Positions 50,680 to 61,101 of a stretch of 64,000 nucleotides of DNA are shown here, piece by piece (position 1 is the stretch's first letter; each line of letters opens with the position of its first letter). The stretch lies in contig JAUHZT010000002.1 of the NCBI GenBank assembly GCA_030425905.1, positions 1 through 64,000 on the forward strand, read 5' to 3'. The notes below the pieces were generated by a model. The model was given only the letters and a program-made list of their open reading frames with translations. It was not told where the DNA came from and ran no database searches. Both the position numbers and the translations under genes were made by a program. This DNA is from Gammaproteobacteria bacterium (GTDB lineage Bacteria > Pseudomonadota > Gammaproteobacteria > Steroidobacterales > Woeseiaceae).

Positions 50680-52215
50680 ATGAAGCTCACGCATAGCGCA
50701 GGTAAACCGCAGCAACGATGGCTGGCGGCAATCACACTTCTGCTGGCGCCGGGCGCGCTGCTGTTCGCAGGCATCGGTGAGGAGCGTTCCAGTTACGAGC
50801 GCCTCGAGAACGAGCAGGAATACGCCGTCGGGGTGCGCGAACTGCTACGCCGTGGCGCAGCGGCGTTCGGCGCGCAATGGACGGCCGATGAAGGAGGCGG
50901 GCGACCACTGACAACCGGAACCGGTGCGCCATTGGCCGACGGTGCGGAACCGCTGGTGTTCCCAAGAAACTTCAACCGTGTATCGGCGCGCGATGCGAAC
51001 AGTTGTGAGGGTTGCCACAATGCCCCGTTTGGGCTGGCAGGCGGCGGCGGAGATTTCGTCACCGGTGTATTTGTTGCCGCACAACGCTTCGACTTTGCCA
51101 GTTTTGATGCAAGCGACCCGGTGCTGATGAAAGGGGCGCTGGATGAGACCGGCAACGCAGCGCAGTTACAAACGATTGGTAATTTCCGTGCCACCATTGG
51201 CATGTTCGGTTCGGGCTACATCGAAATGCTGGCGCGGCAAATGACCGCTGACCTGCAATCAATCCGGGACAACACGCTGCCCGGCCAGTCAAGCAGGCTG
51301 CTTAGCAAAGGTGTCTCGTTTGGTGTCCTGCGGCGCCTGTCCTCGGGCCAATGGGACACGAGCGAGGTCGAAGGACTGCCACCGCAAAGCCTGCGCAGCG
51401 CGAGTGCAGACAGTCCGCCCAGTCTGGTTATCCGTCCCTTTCACCAGTCCGGCAGTGTCGTCTCGATTCGGGAGTTCACCAACAACGCTTTCAACCACCA
51501 CCACGGCATGCAGTCAACGGAGCGTTTTGGCGAAGCGACCGACCCCGATGGCGACGGCGTCATCAACGAGCTGACACGCGCCGACATTACGGCGGTCAGT
51601 TTGTTTCAGGCAAGCTTGCCGGTGCCGGGCGTGGTGATGCCGCGCGAACGCAATGCCCGCCGTGCCGTTGTGCAGGGCAGGCGGCTGTTTGGCAAAGTGG
51701 GGTGTGCGGACTGCCATGTGCCAGCCTTGCCACTGGACAACAATGGCTGGATTTACAGTGAACCGAATCCCTACAATCCGGCGGGAAACCTGCAGGTTGG
51801 CGAAGCGGCGCCGGTAAGTATCGACCTGTCCAGTGCTGCATTACCGGGCCGGCGCCTGACCCCCCGGCACGGCGTCGTCTGGGTGCCCGCATTTACGGAC
51901 CTGAAATTGCATGACATCACGGATGGCCCGGATGACCCGAATGCCGAGCAGATCAACATCAATCACCCGGGCGGTTCCCCGGGCTTCTTTGCCGGCAACC
52001 GGCAGTTTCTGACAAAAAAACTCTGGGGTGCGGCAAACGAAAGCCCCTATTTCCATCACGGACTGTTCACGACGTTGCGCGAAGCCACGCTCGCACACGG
52101 CGGCGAGGCGCGCGCATCACGGCAACGCTTTGTTGCCTTGAGCCGGCAGGAGCAGGCAAGTGTTATTGAGTTCCTGAAGTCACTGCAGGTGTTGCCGCCC
52201 AGGCACCGCAGGTAG
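50680..52215 (+). CDS. Di-haem oxidoreductase (thiol oxidoreductase-like, two c-type haem motifs)
   Basis: CEGCH and CADCH motifs; RGRRLFGKVGCADCHVP-type context. Confidence 0.88.
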   Translation: MKLTHSAGKPQQRWLAAITLLLAPGALLFAGIGEERSSYERLENEQEYAVGVRELLRRGAAAFGAQWTADEGGGRPLTTGTGAPLADGAEPLVFPRNFNRVSARDANSCEGCHNAPFGLAGGGGDFVTGVFVAAQRFDFASFDASDPVLMKGALDETGNAAQLQTIGNFRATIGMFGSGYIEMLARQMTADLQSIRDNTLPGQSSRLLSKGVSFGVLRRLSSGQWDTSEVEGLPPQSLRSASADSPPSLVIRPFHQSGSVVSIREFTNNAFNHHHGMQSTERFGEATDPDGDGVINELTRADITAVSLFQASLPVPGVVMPRERNARRAVVQGRRLFGKVGCADCHVPALPLDNNGWIYSEPNPYNPAGNLQVGEAAPVSIDLSSAALPGRRLTPRHGVVWVPAFTDLKLHDITDGPDDPNAEQININHPGGSPGFFAGNRQFLTKKLWGAANESPYFHHGLFTTLREATLAHGGEARASRQRFVALSRQEQASVIEFLKSLQVLPPRHRR

Positions 52216-52259: not shown

Positions 52260-53114
52260 TCAGCTGGTGCTGCGTACGATCAAGGACTTGAGCAATTCAA
52301 CGATCAGCCACGTGAACAGTATGGGCAGAATAATTGTCTGTAACACGAACAGCACGATCAGGTTGATTATGTGTTCGCTTGCATTCGCGGCGCTGGAACG
52401 CAGGTTTTCAAGTCGCGCTTCGACGTCCATGGACTGCAGGGTACTGCGAACTCGATCGCCGAGCCGGTCCATGATGGACTGGTCGGGATTGAGCCGGGGG
52501 GCGGGCTCCTCGTGCATTGATTCGATCTCGGTACTGGTCGCTTCCAGCGCCGCCGTTGCAGCCTGCTGTTCGGGTTCGAGAAACTGGTTCGTCACCACAT
52601 TGGTACCGATGATCAGCGCCGGTACGATAAACCTGAGCACCAGCGTCATAAGTAACAACCGCGTGCCCATCTGGACGTAGCGATTCTCCGAGGTTGCCGG
52701 CCACCACAGCGCGACAATCGCAATGCATGCGGCGCAGGCAAGCGCGACTGTGAAGCCCCACCAGCTGGTGATGCTGAGCAGAAAGTTCTGGAGTCCGAGC
52801 GAGGTCGCAGCGATCAGCATCACGCTCGAAAACTGCTCAATCAGGTCGTTGATGGGGTCGAGGATTTCGCCGACGCCGAGGTTGACACCAACGCCGCCGG
52901 GCTCGAGCGCGAGTTCGGTACCTTGGGCAAGCGAGATGATGCCATTGAGGGTGCGTGCGACGGCGAAGGTCACCAGCGCCCGCTTGAATGCCTCATCGGC
53001 ATAGCGCTGTGCCGTATCGTCAACGAGCCCGCTGACAGCAATGCCAATTGATATGACGGCAATCAGCGTCCAGAGGATCTTTCTCTTAAGCATGGTGCTC
53101 GCTGTTCGCTGCAA
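52260..53114 (-). CDS. Uncharacterised multi-TM membrane protein
   Basis: Several hydrophobic helices; no family recognised with confidence. Confidence 0.65.
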   Translation of the reverse strand: MQRTASTMLKRKILWTLIAVISIGIAVSGLVDDTAQRYADEAFKRALVTFAVARTLNGIISLAQGTELALEPGGVGVNLGVGEILDPINDLIEQFSSVMLIAATSLGLQNFLLSITSWWGFTVALACAACIAIVALWWPATSENRYVQMGTRLLLMTLVLRFIVPALIIGTNVVTNQFLEPEQQAATAALEATSTEIESMHEEPAPRLNPDQSIMDRLGDRVRSTLQSMDVEARLENLRSSAANASEHIINLIVLFVLQTIILPILFTWLIVELLKSLIVRSTS

Positions 53115-53193: not shown

Positions 53194-56130
53194 CTAGAGC
53201 GGTACCTGGGACAGGAGCAGCGGTGCCCATTCCGGGGTGACCCGGCAGAAAGACTCGCCGGCATTGCTGTCGAAGCCGATACCGGCAGGGTCGATGCGGG
53301 TGTTGTAGTCGAGTTCACAAATACTGTGAGCGATAAAGCGCAACACGCCTTCGATGTCTGCCTGCTGATGCCCGGCAAGGTTTCTGCTGGCAACCGCTGC
53401 GTTGACGTCGTTAAAGGCAGCGGTGTTCGCCACCGTATTCGCGCAAAGTTTCGGGCGGGTTCCGTCGACGCTGCCAGACCCGTACTCGGCGCGCGTCGAG
53501 ACGGGGCACAGTGCTTGCAAGTAATTGCGGTAAGCGAATGCGAGCGCAGCAACCCGATCGACGGCGGCAAACGTGAGGTCCAGGATGGCAAAATCAGACT
53601 GGTCGCTGCAGGTAGGGCAGCCCGCGGAAGGATCGCCTGTAACAGCAGTTAGTTCGATGGATTGCACCGCGCGGTTGCCGAACGGTTGCTGCAGGCGAAT
53701 GATCGCAGCGTTGCTAGTGACATCGTTTGAGTCATCGCCGGACAGAACTGTGTAAGAAAGATCCTGCAGATCGCTGACATCGCGGTCGTTCAACGAGCTA
53801 ACAGACCACGTGTAAGTGTCGCCAGCACCGTTAGCTTCCGCTGTATTGGTCAGCGTAGCGGTGAGTACATCATCGGCCAGGACAGCCGTGATCTGGGCGA
53901 CCTCCTGCACGTCACTGAACTCCGGGCCATCGTACAACAGCGCCAGCGTCATCTCTTGCGCCACGAACGGTACGTTTGTCGATACCGCGGTCGCGGCACC
54001 ACCAGATCCCGCGAGGATTAAATCCTGCGGCCGCACCACCGACGCGACGGTCGCTGTCAGCGACTCGCCGATGTTTATTTCACCGTCGGTAGCGCCGGAA
54101 ATGCCCACGACCGTGAATCCGCCTGCCTGGCGATGCGAGAAATCGCCACCGCTTGCCGACAGGTTCAATGTCAGGTCGCTCGCGAACAGCCCGGCACTGA
54201 CCGCGGCCGCACCGTCAGGAATATCGGTGGCACTGATCGTTTGCAAAGCGCCAACCTGGCGTTGCAGATCCCAGCCGGCAAGGCCCGCGTTGAGCGCAAC
54301 GAGGTGATCCTCGCAGGCGCCACTCAGGTGCCCCGTGTTCTGCAGTTCTTCATTGCAGCCCGACTGCACTGCGTTTAACGGCAGGTTGATGCGCTCGTTG
54401 GCTTCCCGATCCCCGTATTGGTAAAGGACATTGTCCGCTATGGGATCGTCGCTGCTGCCAAGCTGGCTTTGCAGCTCATTGCCCATGAAATCTTCGATAA
54501 CGAACGTGAGACGACCGCCAGCACGTACGCGGCTGCCGCAGCCGACCAGATTGTCCTGCACGTAGAGGTTATCGACGTAGTCGCTGCTCTGTGCAACCGG
54601 GTTGTTGGAGCCATCTGTCCGGAACAGGTCGTACTGGTCGCCAAACAGCAAACCGTACTCGACGTCATCGAGGCTCGTCCCGGGAGCCGCCGAGCCGACT
54701 GGATCAAAACCCGGCACCCAGCATTCGCCGGGCGTCTGGTATTGCGTGTAACCGCTGGTCGGTGTGATTTCCGGGGCCGAGACAATATCTACAAAAAATA
54801 CACCGTTGCGCGCACAGAATTCAGGACCGACTGTGGCATTTTCCAATACGGGAATGTTCGTGAAATCGAGCGGCAAGTCGACAGCAGCACAGGTGCCGGT
54901 GTTCGCATCGTAACGAGGGTCCTGGAAAGGGCCCTGTGTCTCAAACGCGCCGATGGTATCCGGGTCGATACCCGCCAGCTTCATCGTTACGCGGTTGTTG
55001 GCGATCTGGCAGCCAGTAGCCGACAGGCAGTCGGCCGCGAGGAAGGTGCCATTGTTGACGAAATCGATGCCCAGGGGATTGCGTAAAGTGTGGTCAACAG
55101 TTTCGCGAACGGTTGTAAACAGGCTATCCGTACCGGCGTCGTAATCGATCTCGAACAGGGTTACGCGACCGGTCGATCCCGACTGCGTAAGCACGCCGCA
55201 TGGGCCGTCGACGTCAAGGTCCGAGTCGACGTCGTTCGAGGGAGCGAAGAAATTACACAGCGCGGTTGCGATAGAACTGACGTTGCCACTGCCGTTCATC
55301 AGGTTGCGTTGTACGCTGCCATTATCCAGATCGATGGCGAGGATTTCTTTGGCGCCCGCAACGCCCAGCAGGTAGTTGCGCTGTTCGCTTCCGGCAGGGA
55401 CTGTTGTCACGGCACCCGACTTCAGTCCGGCGATGACTGAACCCGGTACGACGGACATGCCCGGCGTTACTGATGCGGGATCAGTGATGCGATAGGCTGC
55501 GCCTGGATTGGCACAGACAGCCAGCAGGTTGCCGCTGCCGGAGGGGTACTCCTCCAGCGTCACAATGTCCTGGCAGCTACTGCCGTTTACAGAAAGCGGC
55601 GGCAGGTCAGATGACTGCAGTGCATAGCCGACATAAGGATCGCTTGCGGCACCGCTGCGGATAAAGCGTTCTATCACGGCCGAACCGGGGCGCGCGACAT
55701 ACAGCGTGTCATCGTTACGTGTAACGACCATGGCTGACGCGCCGTCACCTGAGAAAGTCTGCGATGACCAGTTCGCGCCACCCTGTTCTTCAACCAGCAA
55801 AGTGATCCTACTGCGGTTGCCCGAACTGCCGACAAAAGCATAGTTCGTTGCCTCGGCACGGCCAATCGCAATGGCGTTGGCCTGTTTGACGCGCAAGGGC
55901 ACAATTCTCTCGACCGTTTCGTCGCAGTCTTCGACGATGTCGCACTGGTAGTTGAGCCGGTAAACAGTGCCTTTAAGATCAACCGCAAGGCTCAGGGCGT
56001 CGGCGTTTTGCGCCTGGCTGTATCCGCTTAACAACAACAAGGTGCCCGTCAACGCCACGGCGTGCAGCCGGAACGAGAGTAAAGTGCTCATAGCATCGCT
56101 CTCCGATAGATTATTATTATGCTCAGCCAT
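53194..56130 (-). CDS. Large secreted protein of unknown function (possible propeller-like N-terminus)
   Basis: Signal peptide near Met 56091 (MSTLLSFRLHAVALTGTLLLLSGYSQAQ); long Cys-containing extracytoplasmic sequence. Confidence 0.7.
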   Translation of the reverse strand: MAEHNNNLSESDAMSTLLSFRLHAVALTGTLLLLSGYSQAQNADALSLAVDLKGTVYRLNYQCDIVEDCDETVERIVPLRVKQANAIAIGRAEATNYAFVGSSGNRSRITLLVEEQGGANWSSQTFSGDGASAMVVTRNDDTLYVARPGSAVIERFIRSGAASDPYVGYALQSSDLPPLSVNGSSCQDIVTLEEYPSGSGNLLAVCANPGAAYRITDPASVTPGMSVVPGSVIAGLKSGAVTTVPAGSEQRNYLLGVAGAKEILAIDLDNGSVQRNLMNGSGNVSSIATALCNFFAPSNDVDSDLDVDGPCGVLTQSGSTGRVTLFEIDYDAGTDSLFTTVRETVDHTLRNPLGIDFVNNGTFLAADCLSATGCQIANNRVTMKLAGIDPDTIGAFETQGPFQDPRYDANTGTCAAVDLPLDFTNIPVLENATVGPEFCARNGVFFVDIVSAPEITPTSGYTQYQTPGECWVPGFDPVGSAAPGTSLDDVEYGLLFGDQYDLFRTDGSNNPVAQSSDYVDNLYVQDNLVGCGSRVRAGGRLTFVIEDFMGNELQSQLGSSDDPIADNVLYQYGDREANERINLPLNAVQSGCNEELQNTGHLSGACEDHLVALNAGLAGWDLQRQVGALQTISATDIPDGAAAVSAGLFASDLTLNLSASGGDFSHRQAGGFTVVGISGATDGEINIGESLTATVASVVRPQDLILAGSGGAATAVSTNVPFVAQEMTLALLYDGPEFSDVQEVAQITAVLADDVLTATLTNTAEANGAGDTYTWSVSSLNDRDVSDLQDLSYTVLSGDDSNDVTSNAAIIRLQQPFGNRAVQSIELTAVTGDPSAGCPTCSDQSDFAILDLTFAAVDRVAALAFAYRNYLQALCPVSTRAEYGSGSVDGTRPKLCANTVANTAAFNDVNAAVASRNLAGHQQADIEGVLRFIAHSICELDYNTRIDPAGIGFDSNAGESFCRVTPEWAPLLLSQVPL

Positions 56131-56207: not shown

Positions 56208-58433
56208 CTATTGGACGGCTGTAGCGGCCAAGTCGGCTGTTTTCGACGCTGGCCGGGTGGTCGCGTACAGATGCGCCAGACGTTCCGCGGTTGCTTCGAC
56301 GAAAACGGGCATGGCGGTGCTGCTTGCCTCCAGGATGCGGCGGGCCTCAAGCAATGCCTGCTCGGCCGGCGCATAGTTTCCCTGGCCGGTCATGGCAGCC
56401 CCCATGATGCTCAGTGAGGCACCCGTAAGCCAGTGCTCCGCGCCCAGTGCTGCCGCGAAAATGTCGTGCGCACGCAGCGCTTCCGCTTCGGCTTCGATAA
56501 AGCGGCCTGTGTCGAGGTGCAAAGTGGCGAGCGTCATCAGGCTTTTTGCGGCTTCCGGGTTGTCTTCACCCAGCAATTTACGGCGCATTTCGTAGGCCGT
56601 TTCCAGGTGTGGCTCCGCCGCCGCATAATCTTCGCTCTCGGTCAGCATGAAACCGAGGCCACTGTGGGCGCTGGCGAGCTCCGGGTGCGCGCCGGCGTAC
56701 ACTTGCTCAAACATGGTGGTTGCTTCGGTTTGCAGCTCGATAGCGCGCGCAAGATTGCCTTTGTCGAGCTGCAGCCAGGCGAGATTACCGATCGAGGTCG
56801 CCAGTTGTGGATGAACGGCCGGCAGAAACTGGCGATCCATAGCGATTACGCGTTGGTAGGTCTCCTCGGCTGCGTCCAGTTCACCCTTATCGTGATAGAC
56901 AAACGCCAGGTTATTGAGCGTTGTAGACAACTCGGGGTGCTTGTCACCAAACAGTCGCTGGTCAATTTCGAGTGCTTCCTTGTAAAGCCCTTCGGCCTCG
57001 TCATAGTTGCCCAGCTCAAGGTGCACCAGTGCAAGGTTTGAGATGGCGCCCGAAGTTTCGGGCAGGGGCTCGGCATGCACGGCCCGGCGCATGGCTACGG
57101 CTGCCTGCAGGTTCTCGATAGCGGGCGGGTATTCGCCGATATAGTAGTAGTAGAGGCCCAGGTCTTCGAGGCTCTCGGCGATATCCGCATGCTGCGGGCC
57201 GAGCAATTCACTGCGGCTCTTGAGTGCGTCGCGTATCAGGGGTTCGGCGGCTTCATACTCGCCTTTGCGCATCAGGACATCGGCGAGGCCGGTTTGCGTG
57301 TCGGCGCGCAGCGTTGCCTTGTCATGCGCTGACAGGTCGTCGTTCATTTCACGGATCTGCAGCGACTCCTCGACCAGCGCATGGGCGCGATCGTAGTCGG
57401 CCGTCAGCGCAAGCACGGCGGCAAGACGATCAATCGTGTCAGCGAGTTCGCTGGGGGAGCCCACCTTTTTTTCCTTGCGGGTGCTAAGTGAGCTTTCCAG
57501 TAATTGCGCCGCGCGCGGGTACATGCCGAGCCCGGTATAAGCCTGGCCCATGGTGTCCATAAGGGTCGCCTGTATTTGCGGCTGGCCACTGAGTTCGGTG
57601 CCGATCCGCTCGGCGCCTTCGTCGAGAATCTCGCGCGCCGTGATCGTTGCACCGTTTGTGCGTGACTGGTCGGACAATTCGAACAGGCCGACCATAAAAT
57701 CACGCGTTTCACGTGCGACGGCCGTTTCTTCTTCGGCGCGCAATCGTTGCCGATCGGCTTCGGCACGTGCCATGAAAGCGAACGTGGCCAGGCCACTGGC
57801 GACCAGCATGCCAACCGAAGCGGCGGTTGCAACGATCGCCATCTGGCGATGCCGGCGCTGCTGTTCGCGCTGCTTGAGTGCGTCGAAACCGACGCCAAGC
57901 ATGCCCGAAATAAGCTTCAGCTTGGCGTTCTGACGGCCGTCGCCCTGCGCACGAGCATCAGCGGCGATGGGCTCGGCAAAATGCTCTGACAAGTTGTTGT
58001 CATCGCCCAGTTCATAGCGCAATGCGCGCGGGAAGCATTCATCGCTCGCAGTGGCTTCGTTATTTGATGCCCAGGGTTCGCCATCGACAATCAGGCAAAA
58101 GATATTGCCGGAGCGCCCCAGTCGTTTGTAGCCCAGGATCTCTTCATTGACCCATTGCGACCTGGCGGCCGCAGGTGAGCAAATGACAACAAGGTTTTCG
58201 GAGTTGCGCAGGGCTTCGGTAAGCACTTCGCCGAGATTCGTCGCAGACGGTAGCTCGTCACGGTCGCGAAACACCGGGGCCAGCCGTGCCGGGATCTTGC
58301 CCGCTGCGGTGGTTTCGCCGACGAGGTGTTTGGGAACGCGGTAAGTCTCGAGCGATTTGTGCAGCCAGGACGCCCATTTCTCGTCACGGTGGCAGTAGCT
58401 GATGAACGCACGGTAGCGATATTGCCGGTCCAC
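56208..58433 (-). CDS. TIR domain - TM - TPR repeat protein
   Basis: TIR: YRAFISYCHRDEKWASWLHKSLE, VFRDRDELPSATNLGEVLTEALRNSENLVVICSPAAARSQWVNEEILGYKR; TM MAIVATAASVGMLVASGLATFAFM; multiple kinesin-light-chain-like TPRs. Confidence 0.92.
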   Translation of the reverse strand: MDRQYRYRAFISYCHRDEKWASWLHKSLETYRVPKHLVGETTAAGKIPARLAPVFRDRDELPSATNLGEVLTEALRNSENLVVICSPAAARSQWVNEEILGYKRLGRSGNIFCLIVDGEPWASNNEATASDECFPRALRYELGDDNNLSEHFAEPIAADARAQGDGRQNAKLKLISGMLGVGFDALKQREQQRRHRQMAIVATAASVGMLVASGLATFAFMARAEADRQRLRAEEETAVARETRDFMVGLFELSDQSRTNGATITAREILDEGAERIGTELSGQPQIQATLMDTMGQAYTGLGMYPRAAQLLESSLSTRKEKKVGSPSELADTIDRLAAVLALTADYDRAHALVEESLQIREMNDDLSAHDKATLRADTQTGLADVLMRKGEYEAAEPLIRDALKSRSELLGPQHADIAESLEDLGLYYYYIGEYPPAIENLQAAVAMRRAVHAEPLPETSGAISNLALVHLELGNYDEAEGLYKEALEIDQRLFGDKHPELSTTLNNLAFVYHDKGELDAAEETYQRVIAMDRQFLPAVHPQLATSIGNLAWLQLDKGNLARAIELQTEATTMFEQVYAGAHPELASAHSGLGFMLTESEDYAAAEPHLETAYEMRRKLLGEDNPEAAKSLMTLATLHLDTGRFIEAEAEALRAHDIFAAALGAEHWLTGASLSIMGAAMTGQGNYAPAEQALLEARRILEASSTAMPVFVEATAERLAHLYATTRPASKTADLAATAVQ

Positions 58434-58587
58434 AGGCTTGCTCGGGGGTCCGCTAAAAGAGGTAGTCTAGGGCAATTACTGTCGTTTGGACACTGCATTG
58501 ACGGCTGACTGTTGTGCGCTATTCGCTGTTCGGCCTGAATCTGGCTACCATTCACAAGCTGCCGCAGCAATTCGTTGGTATTGGTGA

Positions 58588-61101
58588 ATGCCCGTAAAAG
58601 CAAAACAAAAAGAGCAGGCCAAGACGCTCAGGGACCGTCCCCTCATTATCGGTGTGACCGGCCACCGCGATCTGATTCCGACCGAGATTCCCGGCATCAA
58701 CGCACTGGTGCGCGAGCTTTTTGCTGAACTGCTGCAGCATTTCCCGGGTCGTTCGCTGACGGTAATGTCGCCGCTGGCAGAAGGTGCAGACCGGATTGTT
58801 GCGCTGGTCGCGGAAGACCTCGGTATCGACCTTGTGGTGCCGTTGCCGATGGCCGAAGCGGTGTACGCGCGCGATTTCGAATCGAGCCGCTCCTGGGCGG
58901 AGTTCGGGCGCCTGATGGGCTACGCAAGCGAAGTAAGCATTTTGCCGCTGGTGCCGGGCAACACGCACGAGTCGGTGTCTGACTACGGGCCTGAGCGGGA
59001 CCGGCAATACGCTGAAGCGGGTGCCTACATTGCGGCGCGTGCCGATGTGATGATCGCTATCTGGGACGGGCGAGTAACGGCTGATCTCGGCGGTACCGGT
59101 CACGTGGTGCAGTTTCGTCGCGCAGGCACGATGCCCGGCTATGTGCCGAACTTCACCGACGCTCCGGCACGGGATCTTGTTTTTCACATCCCCTGTTCGC
59201 GCGATCGCCTGAGCGGTGCGCCGGTCGGCGATCTGAAACCTTTAGTGCCTCGCTGGCTTGGTTCCCGCGACCGGCAGTTTGCAAGTTTCCCGCATGAGTA
59301 CATCGAAAAGCTCAATTCGCTATCGCTGGTCGAGGCCCAGGTCGAAAGAAAGGAGGGCATTGTTACCCGGGACAGCTATCGCTTTCCGCTGGTCATCGGC
59401 GTAACCGGTCATCGCGACCTGGTGGCCGCGGAGGAGCCTGAAATACGTAACCGGGTACGTAACCTGCTGCTCGAGTTGAATGAGCGGTTTCCGCACCGGA
59501 AATTGCGCCTTATATCGCCGCTTGCGGAAGGCGCCGACCGGCTGGTCGCCGAAGTGGCACTTGAACTCGGTGTAGAAATAGGCGTTGTGTTGCCAATGCC
59601 GCGGCACCTTTATTATTCGGACTTCAGTTCCGACGAATCCATTGCGGAGTTCAACGCGCTGTACCGTTGCGCCAGCGACGTCATTACTTTGCCGCTGGCA
59701 AAAAAGAATACGCTCAAGGATATTAGCGAGCCGGGCGCCGCACGCGATCTGCAGTACGCGCAGAACGGAGTTTTCCTGTCGGCTCACTGCCATGTGCTGC
59801 TGGCGCTCTGGGACGGCAAGACCACCGGCAAACTCGGCGGCACCGCGCAGGTTGTACGCTTTCATCACCACGACATCATGCCAGGCTACACCACGCGCAC
59901 GGTCGCGACGCAGCAGATGCTGATCGATGACGAAAGCGACCTCATCTACCATATTGTCTGTTCGAGGGATGTGCCGGACGGGGCGCCTGCGGAAGGATTT
60001 GAACCGCTGGATTGCTGGTGGTTCACGAACGACCGGCACGAAGCGCGCACGCGCGAGCTGCCAGCGCAGCATGAGCTGGTGTTTCGTCGCAGTGCCGAGT
60101 TCAGTGAGGACGCGACGCGCTTTCGCGATTCGATCGCCGAGGAGCGCTATCCGCTGATGCCGGACGATGCGAGCGCTGAATTGCCATTTGGGCTGGCGAG
60201 TATTAACCATCTTTTTTGTATCAGTGACTGGCTGGCTATCCACTACCAGAAACTCACTATTCGCGTGCTGCGCGGTACGCACGCGCTGGCCTTCCTGATG
60301 GGTCTGATGTTTATCCTCTACTCGGATTTGCGGACCCAGGAAATCTTCATGGTTGCCTTTCTTGTATTGTTTTTTGCGGCGGCAGGCTTGCAAAAATACG
60401 CGCAGCGAGAAGGCTGGCATCGCAAGTATCTCGACTACCGTGCGCTCGCGGAAGGCTTGCGGGTGCAGTTCTACCTAGCGGCGGCAGGTATTACGAACGA
60501 CAACGAGTCGAAGTTTACACACGATAATTTCCTGCAAACACAGGACCCGGAGCTGGGCTGGATCCGCAATGTCATGCGTGTTGCCGGTACCCGCTGTGAC
60601 GCGGAGCGCGAAGTAACTGATGCCGGGCTGCAGTTTACGCTGGACGAATGGGTCGGCGACGAGACGAGCGGACAGCTTGGGTATTATCGGCGCAAGGCAT
60701 CGCAGTGGGTAACCAGTAACCGCGGCACCGAGCGGCTGTCCCTGCTCAGCCTGATGACCAGTATTGTAGTCGTCGTTGTCATTCTGCTGCTGGGTGGCCG
60801 GCTGGGCGAGAATGTTGTCGACATACTGTTTGCCTTCATGGGCGCCACCCTGCTCTTGTACGCGGTGCGCCAGGGTTATGCGCAAACGACAGCGGAAAAA
60901 GAGCTGATCAAACAATATGAATTCATGTTGCGTGTGTTTGAAAATGCCAAGCGCAGACTCGACAATGCCGACGATAACAGTGAGCGCCGCCAGATCATTC
61001 GCGCGCTCGGCGGCTCCTGCCTCGACGAACACGCGGAATGGATCCTGATGCACCGCGATCGTTCAATCGACAATAGCGACCTGTGGCGCTTCGGCGGGTG
61101 A
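58588..61101 (+). CDS. Tandem SLOG-like (Rossmannoid nucleotide-binding) protein with C-terminal TM (SLATT-like) region
   Basis: Two repeats: PLIIGVTGHRDL..SPLAEGADRIVA and PLVIGVTGHRDL..SPLAEGADRLVA; C-terminal hydrophobic pairs ALAFLMGLMFILY/IFMVAFLVLFFAAAGL and LSLMTSIVVVVVILLLGG/ILFAFMGATLLLYAV. Confidence 0.8.
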   Translation: MPVKAKQKEQAKTLRDRPLIIGVTGHRDLIPTEIPGINALVRELFAELLQHFPGRSLTVMSPLAEGADRIVALVAEDLGIDLVVPLPMAEAVYARDFESSRSWAEFGRLMGYASEVSILPLVPGNTHESVSDYGPERDRQYAEAGAYIAARADVMIAIWDGRVTADLGGTGHVVQFRRAGTMPGYVPNFTDAPARDLVFHIPCSRDRLSGAPVGDLKPLVPRWLGSRDRQFASFPHEYIEKLNSLSLVEAQVERKEGIVTRDSYRFPLVIGVTGHRDLVAAEEPEIRNRVRNLLLELNERFPHRKLRLISPLAEGADRLVAEVALELGVEIGVVLPMPRHLYYSDFSSDESIAEFNALYRCASDVITLPLAKKNTLKDISEPGAARDLQYAQNGVFLSAHCHVLLALWDGKTTGKLGGTAQVVRFHHHDIMPGYTTRTVATQQMLIDDESDLIYHIVCSRDVPDGAPAEGFEPLDCWWFTNDRHEARTRELPAQHELVFRRSAEFSEDATRFRDSIAEERYPLMPDDASAELPFGLASINHLFCISDWLAIHYQKLTIRVLRGTHALAFLMGLMFILYSDLRTQEIFMVAFLVLFFAAAGLQKYAQREGWHRKYLDYRALAEGLRVQFYLAAAGITNDNESKFTHDNFLQTQDPELGWIRNVMRVAGTRCDAEREVTDAGLQFTLDEWVGDETSGQLGYYRRKASQWVTSNRGTERLSLLSLMTSIVVVVVILLLGGRLGENVVDILFAFMGATLLLYAVRQGYAQTTAEKELIKQYEFMLRVFENAKRRLDNADDNSERRQIIRALGGSCLDEHAEWILMHRDRSIDNSDLWRFGG

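Follow-up and report, generated by a model that had tools for sequence, protein, structure and literature searches.

Organization of the locus

The window (the whole 64,000-nucleotide stretch of DNA analysed here) carries a predicted signalling module of two to three genes, present in many gammaproteobacteria, in which a TIR gene and a SLOG-SLATT gene are divergently oriented. The TIR-TM-TPR protein P0001 (741 aa, GTG start; 56208-58433, minus strand) is a predicted membrane-anchored NADase and receptor, and the SLOG-SLOG-SLATT protein P0002 (837 aa, ATG start; 58588-61101, plus strand) is a predicted nucleotide-gated membrane effector. Both are encoded by open reading frames present as one copy each in the genome, and their start codons are separated by a divergent intergenic region of 154 bp (58434-58587). 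No sigma-70-like site was found in this spacer, and scanning the locus for promoters and terminators gave results at chance level. A first-pass annotation of the same DNA had given the two reading frames and the spacer exactly. It described the locus as a pair of genes, and both are as stated there, but it overlooked a third gene, which lies 77 bp downstream of the TIR gene in the same orientation and encodes a secreted protein of 978 aa (53194-56130, minus strand).

A membrane-anchored TIR protein with a predicted external TPR array

Residues 1-186 of P0001 (57876-58433, minus strand) make up a TIR domain. Within it, residues 10-117 matched Pfam TIR_2 (3e-11) and ThsB_TIR (2e-8), both beyond the Pfam cut-offs, and the TIR profile matched the plant TIR structures L6, RUN1, RPV1 and RPP1. 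In the profile alignment, the SxWxxxE motif of P0001 was aligned with SxWCxxE of plant TIR NADases, with the second E of SQWVNEE (E98) at the position of the catalytic glutamate. The predicted catalytic Glu98 (S92-x-W94-x-x-x-E98; codon at 58140-58142, minus strand) was assigned from this alignment and from its invariance: E98, S92 and W94 were found in 58/58 TIR domains from SLOG-SLATT loci. The glutamate that the first-pass annotation had called plausibly catalytic is thus conserved throughout, a feature of the TIR NADase superfamily. The TIR profile also matched (E 0.0037) a solved 824-aa 'Tetratricopeptide repeat protein', PDB 9m0n/9umd, for which our literature search found no paper naming the entries; this structure is likely a useful template.

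The TIR domain is followed by a single TM helix recognized by hydropathy (residues 198-216; 57786-57842, minus strand) and a kinesin-light-chain-type TPR array (residues 241-740; 56214-57713, minus strand), which was delimited with Pfam TPR_12 (6e-67), KLC1 structures (2e-28) and our own HMM and is predicted to be extracytoplasmic. Among full-length partners of SLOG-SLATT proteins, of either the TIR or the STAND type described below, one predicted TM helix lies right after the head in 67/67, at the same place as in P0001, and a second hydrophobic stretch occurs elsewhere in 5/67. Lysine and arginine are richer on the N-terminal side of the helix in 66 of the 67 (mean 5.6 vs 2.9). According to the positive-inside rule, the K/R-rich side of a TM segment is the cytoplasmic one. 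Because the bias is on the N-terminal side, the head is predicted to be cytoplasmic; hydropathy and charge together would place the enzyme inside and the TPR array outside the cytoplasm.

Two SLOG domains and two SLATT-like hairpins in P0002

An AlphaFold2 model of P0002, built from a 39-row alignment (mean pLDDT 87.7), contains two Rossmann-type SLOG domains and two helical TM hairpins. Searched with Foldseek, the model matched ShosA and DprA with a probability of 1.00, but with E-values of only 5e-3 to 2e-2. Judging from the model, P0002 has the DprA/LOG-type Rossmannoid fold of the SLOG superfamily, in agreement with the two SLOG repeats and C-terminal TM helices previously read from the sequence.

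SLOG domain 2 (residues ~267-480; 59386-60027, plus strand), delimited from the model and from family alignments, is the copy common to the whole family, and SLOG domain 1 (residues ~19-225; 58642-59262, plus strand) is an extra copy. The two are 43% identical (100/235). The invariant motifs of the SLOG domains are TGHR, AEGAD and WDG. Since nearly all residues invariant in SLOG2 are kept in SLOG1, both copies may bind ligand. Tandem SLOG domains were found in four loci only (the window, L031, L032 and L076), which form one clade on the tree; a single SLOG is the norm. The earlier picture of a double-SLOG effector therefore holds for P0002 but is atypical of its family.

The first SLATT-like helix and TM hairpin spans residues 536-632 (60193-60483, plus strand) and the second residues 695-793 (60670-60966, plus strand), both delimited with the AlphaFold2 model and hydropathy. 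All SLATT scores of P0002 are below the cut-offs: SLATT_1, 22.7 against 26.3 bits (1e-4, second hairpin); SLATT_3, 18.5 against 26.3 (first hairpin); NCBIfam SLATT_3, 24.7 against 45. In the model, the hairpins resemble those of SLATT proteins.

Linkage and co-occurrence of SLOG-SLATT and TIR genes

Homologues of P0002 are present in 56/246 genomes of the window's order. Employing our own HMMs, we analysed their flanks together with those of 80 loci found by scanning GTDB genomes, among them loci of Woeseiaceae, Dyella, Rhodanobacter, Luteibacter, Lysobacter, Pseudohongiella and others. A partner gene was located within 5 kb in 68 of 112 distinct SLOG-SLATT loci (TIR in 55, STAND-NTPase in 13; median gap 482 bp), and in 46 of the 69 loci that have 4 kb or more of sequence on either side. 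Based on the density of P0001's TIR family, the chance expectation of a TIR neighbour is ~7e-4 per locus; the co-location that had been proposed as a check on the pair is thus far beyond chance. The TIR/STAND-TPR cluster neighbours SLOG-SLATT in 67 loci, the next-commonest cluster in 12.

As a second sample, 150 genomes were evenly drawn from the order of genome G494, and SLOG-SLATT and TIR genes were searched separately. As G494 had been picked for carrying the SLOG-SLATT family, the sample comes from a favourable order. SLOG-SLATT was found in 39 genomes and TIR in 40: both in 36, SLOG-SLATT alone in 3, TIR alone in 4 and neither in 107, counts that are uncorrected for relatedness. The odds ratio over the 150 genomes is 321 (Fisher p 1.2e-26, kinship ignored), and the hits span 23 of 64 genera. 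A TIR gene lies within 6 kb of 27 of the 39 SLOG-SLATT genes; for 9 of the other 12, the genome has a TIR gene at another site. The 40 genomes hold 59 TIR genes in all, as against one SLOG-SLATT gene per genome having it; 32/59 do not adjoin SLOG-SLATT, yet 53/59 are in genomes that possess it. Several TIR receptors may feed one SLOG-SLATT effector.

Linkage, the density expectation and co-occurrence in genomes together rule out chance adjacency. A functional link between TIR and SLOG-SLATT is strongly supported, and the core prediction of the first-pass annotation, a functional pair of TIR and SLOG-TM proteins, is borne out by linkage, by co-occurrence even of unlinked genes and by the invariant glutamate. 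Across 399 genomes sampled from the whole phylum, only 3 had the full-length family, all of the window's class, and within one genus the presence of the P0002 family is patchy.

Exchange of the head domain

In 13 loci the TIR domain is replaced. The complete genes of this type encode DUF4062 plus nSTAND1 (nSTAND1 3e-96); the STAND assignment of L053, at a contig edge, is partial. The order of parts in the STAND variant is DUF4062, STAND NTPase, TM helix and KLC-like TPRs (TPR_NPHP3 1e-40). Mapped onto a quick SLOG-SLATT tree, TIR and STAND heads changed at least five times, with one of the five resting on L053. The TPR region of the STAND-type partner in L033 shares 62% identity with that of the TIR-type L077 and 46% with that of the STAND-type L045; the head was therefore exchanged on a conserved TPR.

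According to a 2026 preprint, DUF4062 domains form a family of NADases that resemble TIR and have a catalytic glutamate (PMC13174449). The SGTExE motif of DUF4062 is invariant in 11/11 relatives, and the DUF4062 domain of L033 scores 18.3 bits against a Pfam cut-off of 24.7. With an invariant motif in TIR and DUF4062 heads alike, the partner of the effector therefore keeps a predicted NADase head of one kind or the other.

Adjoining a distant SLOG-SLATT homologue, L064:5565-8099 (minus strand) encodes a protein that combines a CadC-like DNA-binding domain with an AAA/NB-ARC-like ATPase and has weak matches to TPRs; it is possibly another kind of SLOG-SLATT partner.

A variable third gene

The 978-aa protein has a signal-peptide-like N-terminus (likely start at 56091; signal peptide ~56008-56091) and a 60% identical counterpart at the same position in L076, and it is part of the window's module. 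In the window's clade, 15 cassettes have a secreted-protein gene 57-295 bp downstream of the NADase gene and co-oriented with it; in 14 of the 15 its product has a signal-peptide-like start, read by eye. These secreted proteins can be sorted into five or more families, between which profile comparison detected no relation; one of the families gave a weak C-type lectin match. AlphaFold2, with one homologue in the alignment, gave no reliable fold for the 978-aa protein (pLDDT 32.5).

At loci of the Xanthomonadales type, a gap of 450-600 bp holds a small gene (~105-205 aa) in place of the large secreted one. Such a small gene lies beside 31/45 TIR genes and often has a strong Shine-Dalgarno match and encodes a C-terminal [D/N]PxIxN motif; small Ig-like PxIxN genes lie just after the TIR genes of L119, L126, L103, L129, L133, L145 and others. 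Two of the small proteins weakly resemble Pfam DP-EP. The motif is rare among background ORFs, occurring in 39 of 7544, a count that includes the third genes themselves. Searched separately, the PxIxN family was found in 13 of the 150 second-order genomes, of which 12 also have SLOG-SLATT; of its 18 copies, 14 lie within 6 kb of a TIR gene. Some small PxIxN proteins have signal peptides; those of Dyella and Rhodanobacter do not, which is at odds with a simple periplasmic ligand. The module is usually a three-component cassette.

At four loci (L102, L103, L125 and L137) two TIR genes surround a single SLOG-SLATT gene, as if sensors shared an effector; in L102, L103 and L137 both TIR genes come with a small PxIxN gene of their own, and only one such gene was found in L125.

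A gene for a 284-aa multi-TM protein (52260-53114, minus strand) lies 79 bp downstream of the 978-aa gene on the same strand. The protein had no match in a Pfam search and no counterpart in the L076 cassette, and is not counted as part of the module.

Genomic context

The flanks are ordinary; a di-haem peroxidase-like (DHOR) protein, for example, is encoded at 50680-52215 (plus strand). PADLOC at 1e-10 gave no match among 68 flanking proteins from the window and five cultured loci. A defence island was rejected on this result, which agrees with the metabolic flanks reported before. Carriage by phages or plasmids was likewise rejected: no phage homologues of the family were found, and a plasmid search gave weak partial matches only.

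A model for the module and its alternatives

We propose that the module is a membrane-spanning NAD-signalling receptor, and we put the whole circuit at about even chances. The TIR-TM-TPR protein would sit in the inner membrane with its TIR domain inside and its TPR array outside, and the secreted partner, the 978-aa protein in the window, may serve as a ligand, a ligand-binder or a plug at the TPR array. An outside signal or partner acting on the TPRs would cluster the TIR domains, which would then cleave NAD+ via Glu98 to an ADP-ribose-type nucleotide, as family chemistry and the invariant glutamate suggest. The nucleotide would bind the SLOG domains of the divergently encoded P0002, and its SLATT-like TM hairpins would oligomerise and perturb the membrane. 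Supporting this at the sequence level are the domain make-up, the topology signal, the invariant catalytic residues, linkage, co-occurrence and the exchange of heads on the same TPR. There is precedent for the later steps: the SLOG domain of ThsA binds 3'cADPR, TM-macro ThsA has been proposed to act at the membrane through oligomerisation that a nucleotide induces (PMC11204291), and SLATT is predicted to be an ADPr-gated membrane effector (PMC9503650). Neighbourhoods of TIR and SLATT in Firmicute phages are noted in PMC9503650 and PMC7159879. Counted against the model are the sub-cut-off SLATT scores, the lack of defence genes nearby and of phage homologues, plasmid matches that are weak only, a third component that is not one family, PxIxN proteins without signal peptides, and the 32/59 second-order TIR genes away from SLOG-SLATT.

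The purpose would most likely be defence against phage or competitors. The same NAD-signalling circuit could instead serve envelope or stress sensing or development, as the ordinary metabolic flanks, the lack of PADLOC matches, the lack of phage carriage, and the secreted and TPR parts, which suggest envelope sensing, would all allow; patchy presence within a genus, fast turnover of the third gene and repeated head exchange are more typical of conflict systems, and we consider this use of the circuit unlikely, at roughly one chance in four. Near-obligate co-occurrence and a divergent or operonic layout would also fit a toxin-antitoxin-like arrangement, in which the TIR NADase is the killer and SLOG-SLATT provides immunity or regulation, for example if SLOG-SLATT sequestered or degraded the product; cleavage of ribosyl bonds is known for some SLOG enzymes (PMC9503650). 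Four TM helices with SLATT-like hairpins, however, suit an effector better than an antidote, and several TIRs per SLOG-SLATT (59 in 40 genomes) suit many sensors with one effector, which makes such an arrangement improbable. Many TIR domains act as scaffolds, and the TIR of P0001 could likewise be an assembly module only, contacting SLOG-SLATT with no small molecule made. The invariance of the catalytic glutamate and its motif, and the fact that TIR is replaced by a second NADase family and not by a different scaffold, make this the least probable of the three, and very improbable.

Returning to the NAD-signalling receptor, we suggest, tentatively and at somewhat less than even chances, that it represents an undescribed, Toll-receptor-like receptor class, with an outside TPR array and a varying secreted partner, a TM helix, an exchangeable NADase head and a SLOG-gated SLATT effector. 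If so, soluble intracellular sensors of phage proteins would not be the only way for bacteria to raise an NAD-derived nucleotide alarm; with the enzyme coupled to a secreted partner and to a domain that faces outward, extracellular cues would control an internal nucleotide alarm. The natural swap between TIR and DUF4062-STAND is independent comparative evidence for equivalent jobs of DUF4062 and TIR, and, occurring on the same receptor and effector, offers a clean route to the SLOG ligand. In culturable hosts (Dyella, Rhodanobacter), it would become directly testable whether SLATT acts, as predicted, as a membrane effector gated by a nucleotide.

Comparison with known systems

TRPM channels and nephrocystin-3 offer partial likenesses. 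TRPM channels also join SLOG-type domains and TM helices in one chain, and the Foldseek matches included weak hits to TRPM8 and TRPM2, but the TM part is unrelated and no E-value was significant; this is an analogy only. Nephrocystin-3 (NPHP3) has DUF4062, STAND NTPase and KLC-like TPRs in the same order as the STAND variant, whereas the bacterial protein adds a TM helix before the TPRs; the likeness is one of architecture only.

Among bacterial systems, Swarozyc and related DUF4062 NADases resemble the window's relatives in which the alternative head is a probable DUF4062 domain with the invariant SGTExE motif. Swarozyc is triggered by a phage portal protein (PMC13174449), whereas in the relatives DUF4062 forms one protein with nSTAND1, a TM helix and TPRs, and that protein is linked to SLOG-SLATT. 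In the TIR-SLATT systems of Firmicute phages and the GAP1 systems, a TIR likewise stands beside a 2TM SLATT predicted to be nucleotide-responsive; in the accessible text of PMC9503650 and PMC7159879, these systems belong to other lineages, and no SLOG fusion, TIR-TM-TPR receptor or secreted partner is described for them.

Thoeris, like the module, combines a TIR that has a catalytic glutamate with an effector, encoded close by, that bears SLOG or sits in the membrane (PMC11204291). Its ThsA, however, is SIR2-SLOG or TM-Macro, whereas P0002 is SLOG-SLATT with no SIR2 or Macro match; the TIR of the module is membrane-anchored with a predicted extracytoplasmic TPR array, and there is a third, variable gene. 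P0001 scored 15.9 bits against Thoeris III ThcB4 (cut-off 220). With a ThsA-type effector absent and the curated Thoeris and PADLOC models unmatched, membership in Thoeris was rejected. P0002 itself had no PADLOC hit, and neither PADLOC nor NCBIfam has a model covering the TIR/SLOG-SLATT pair, consistent with the earlier remark that it fits no nameable subtype. We found no prior description of the pair in the literature outside subscription papers, where an earlier passing mention is possible. Of the label 'Thoeris-like', membership fell, for want of a SIR2 or Macro effector and because the TIR is a membrane protein, and the signalling logic stood: the pair fits no named subtype and appears to be a new relative of TIR-based immune systems.
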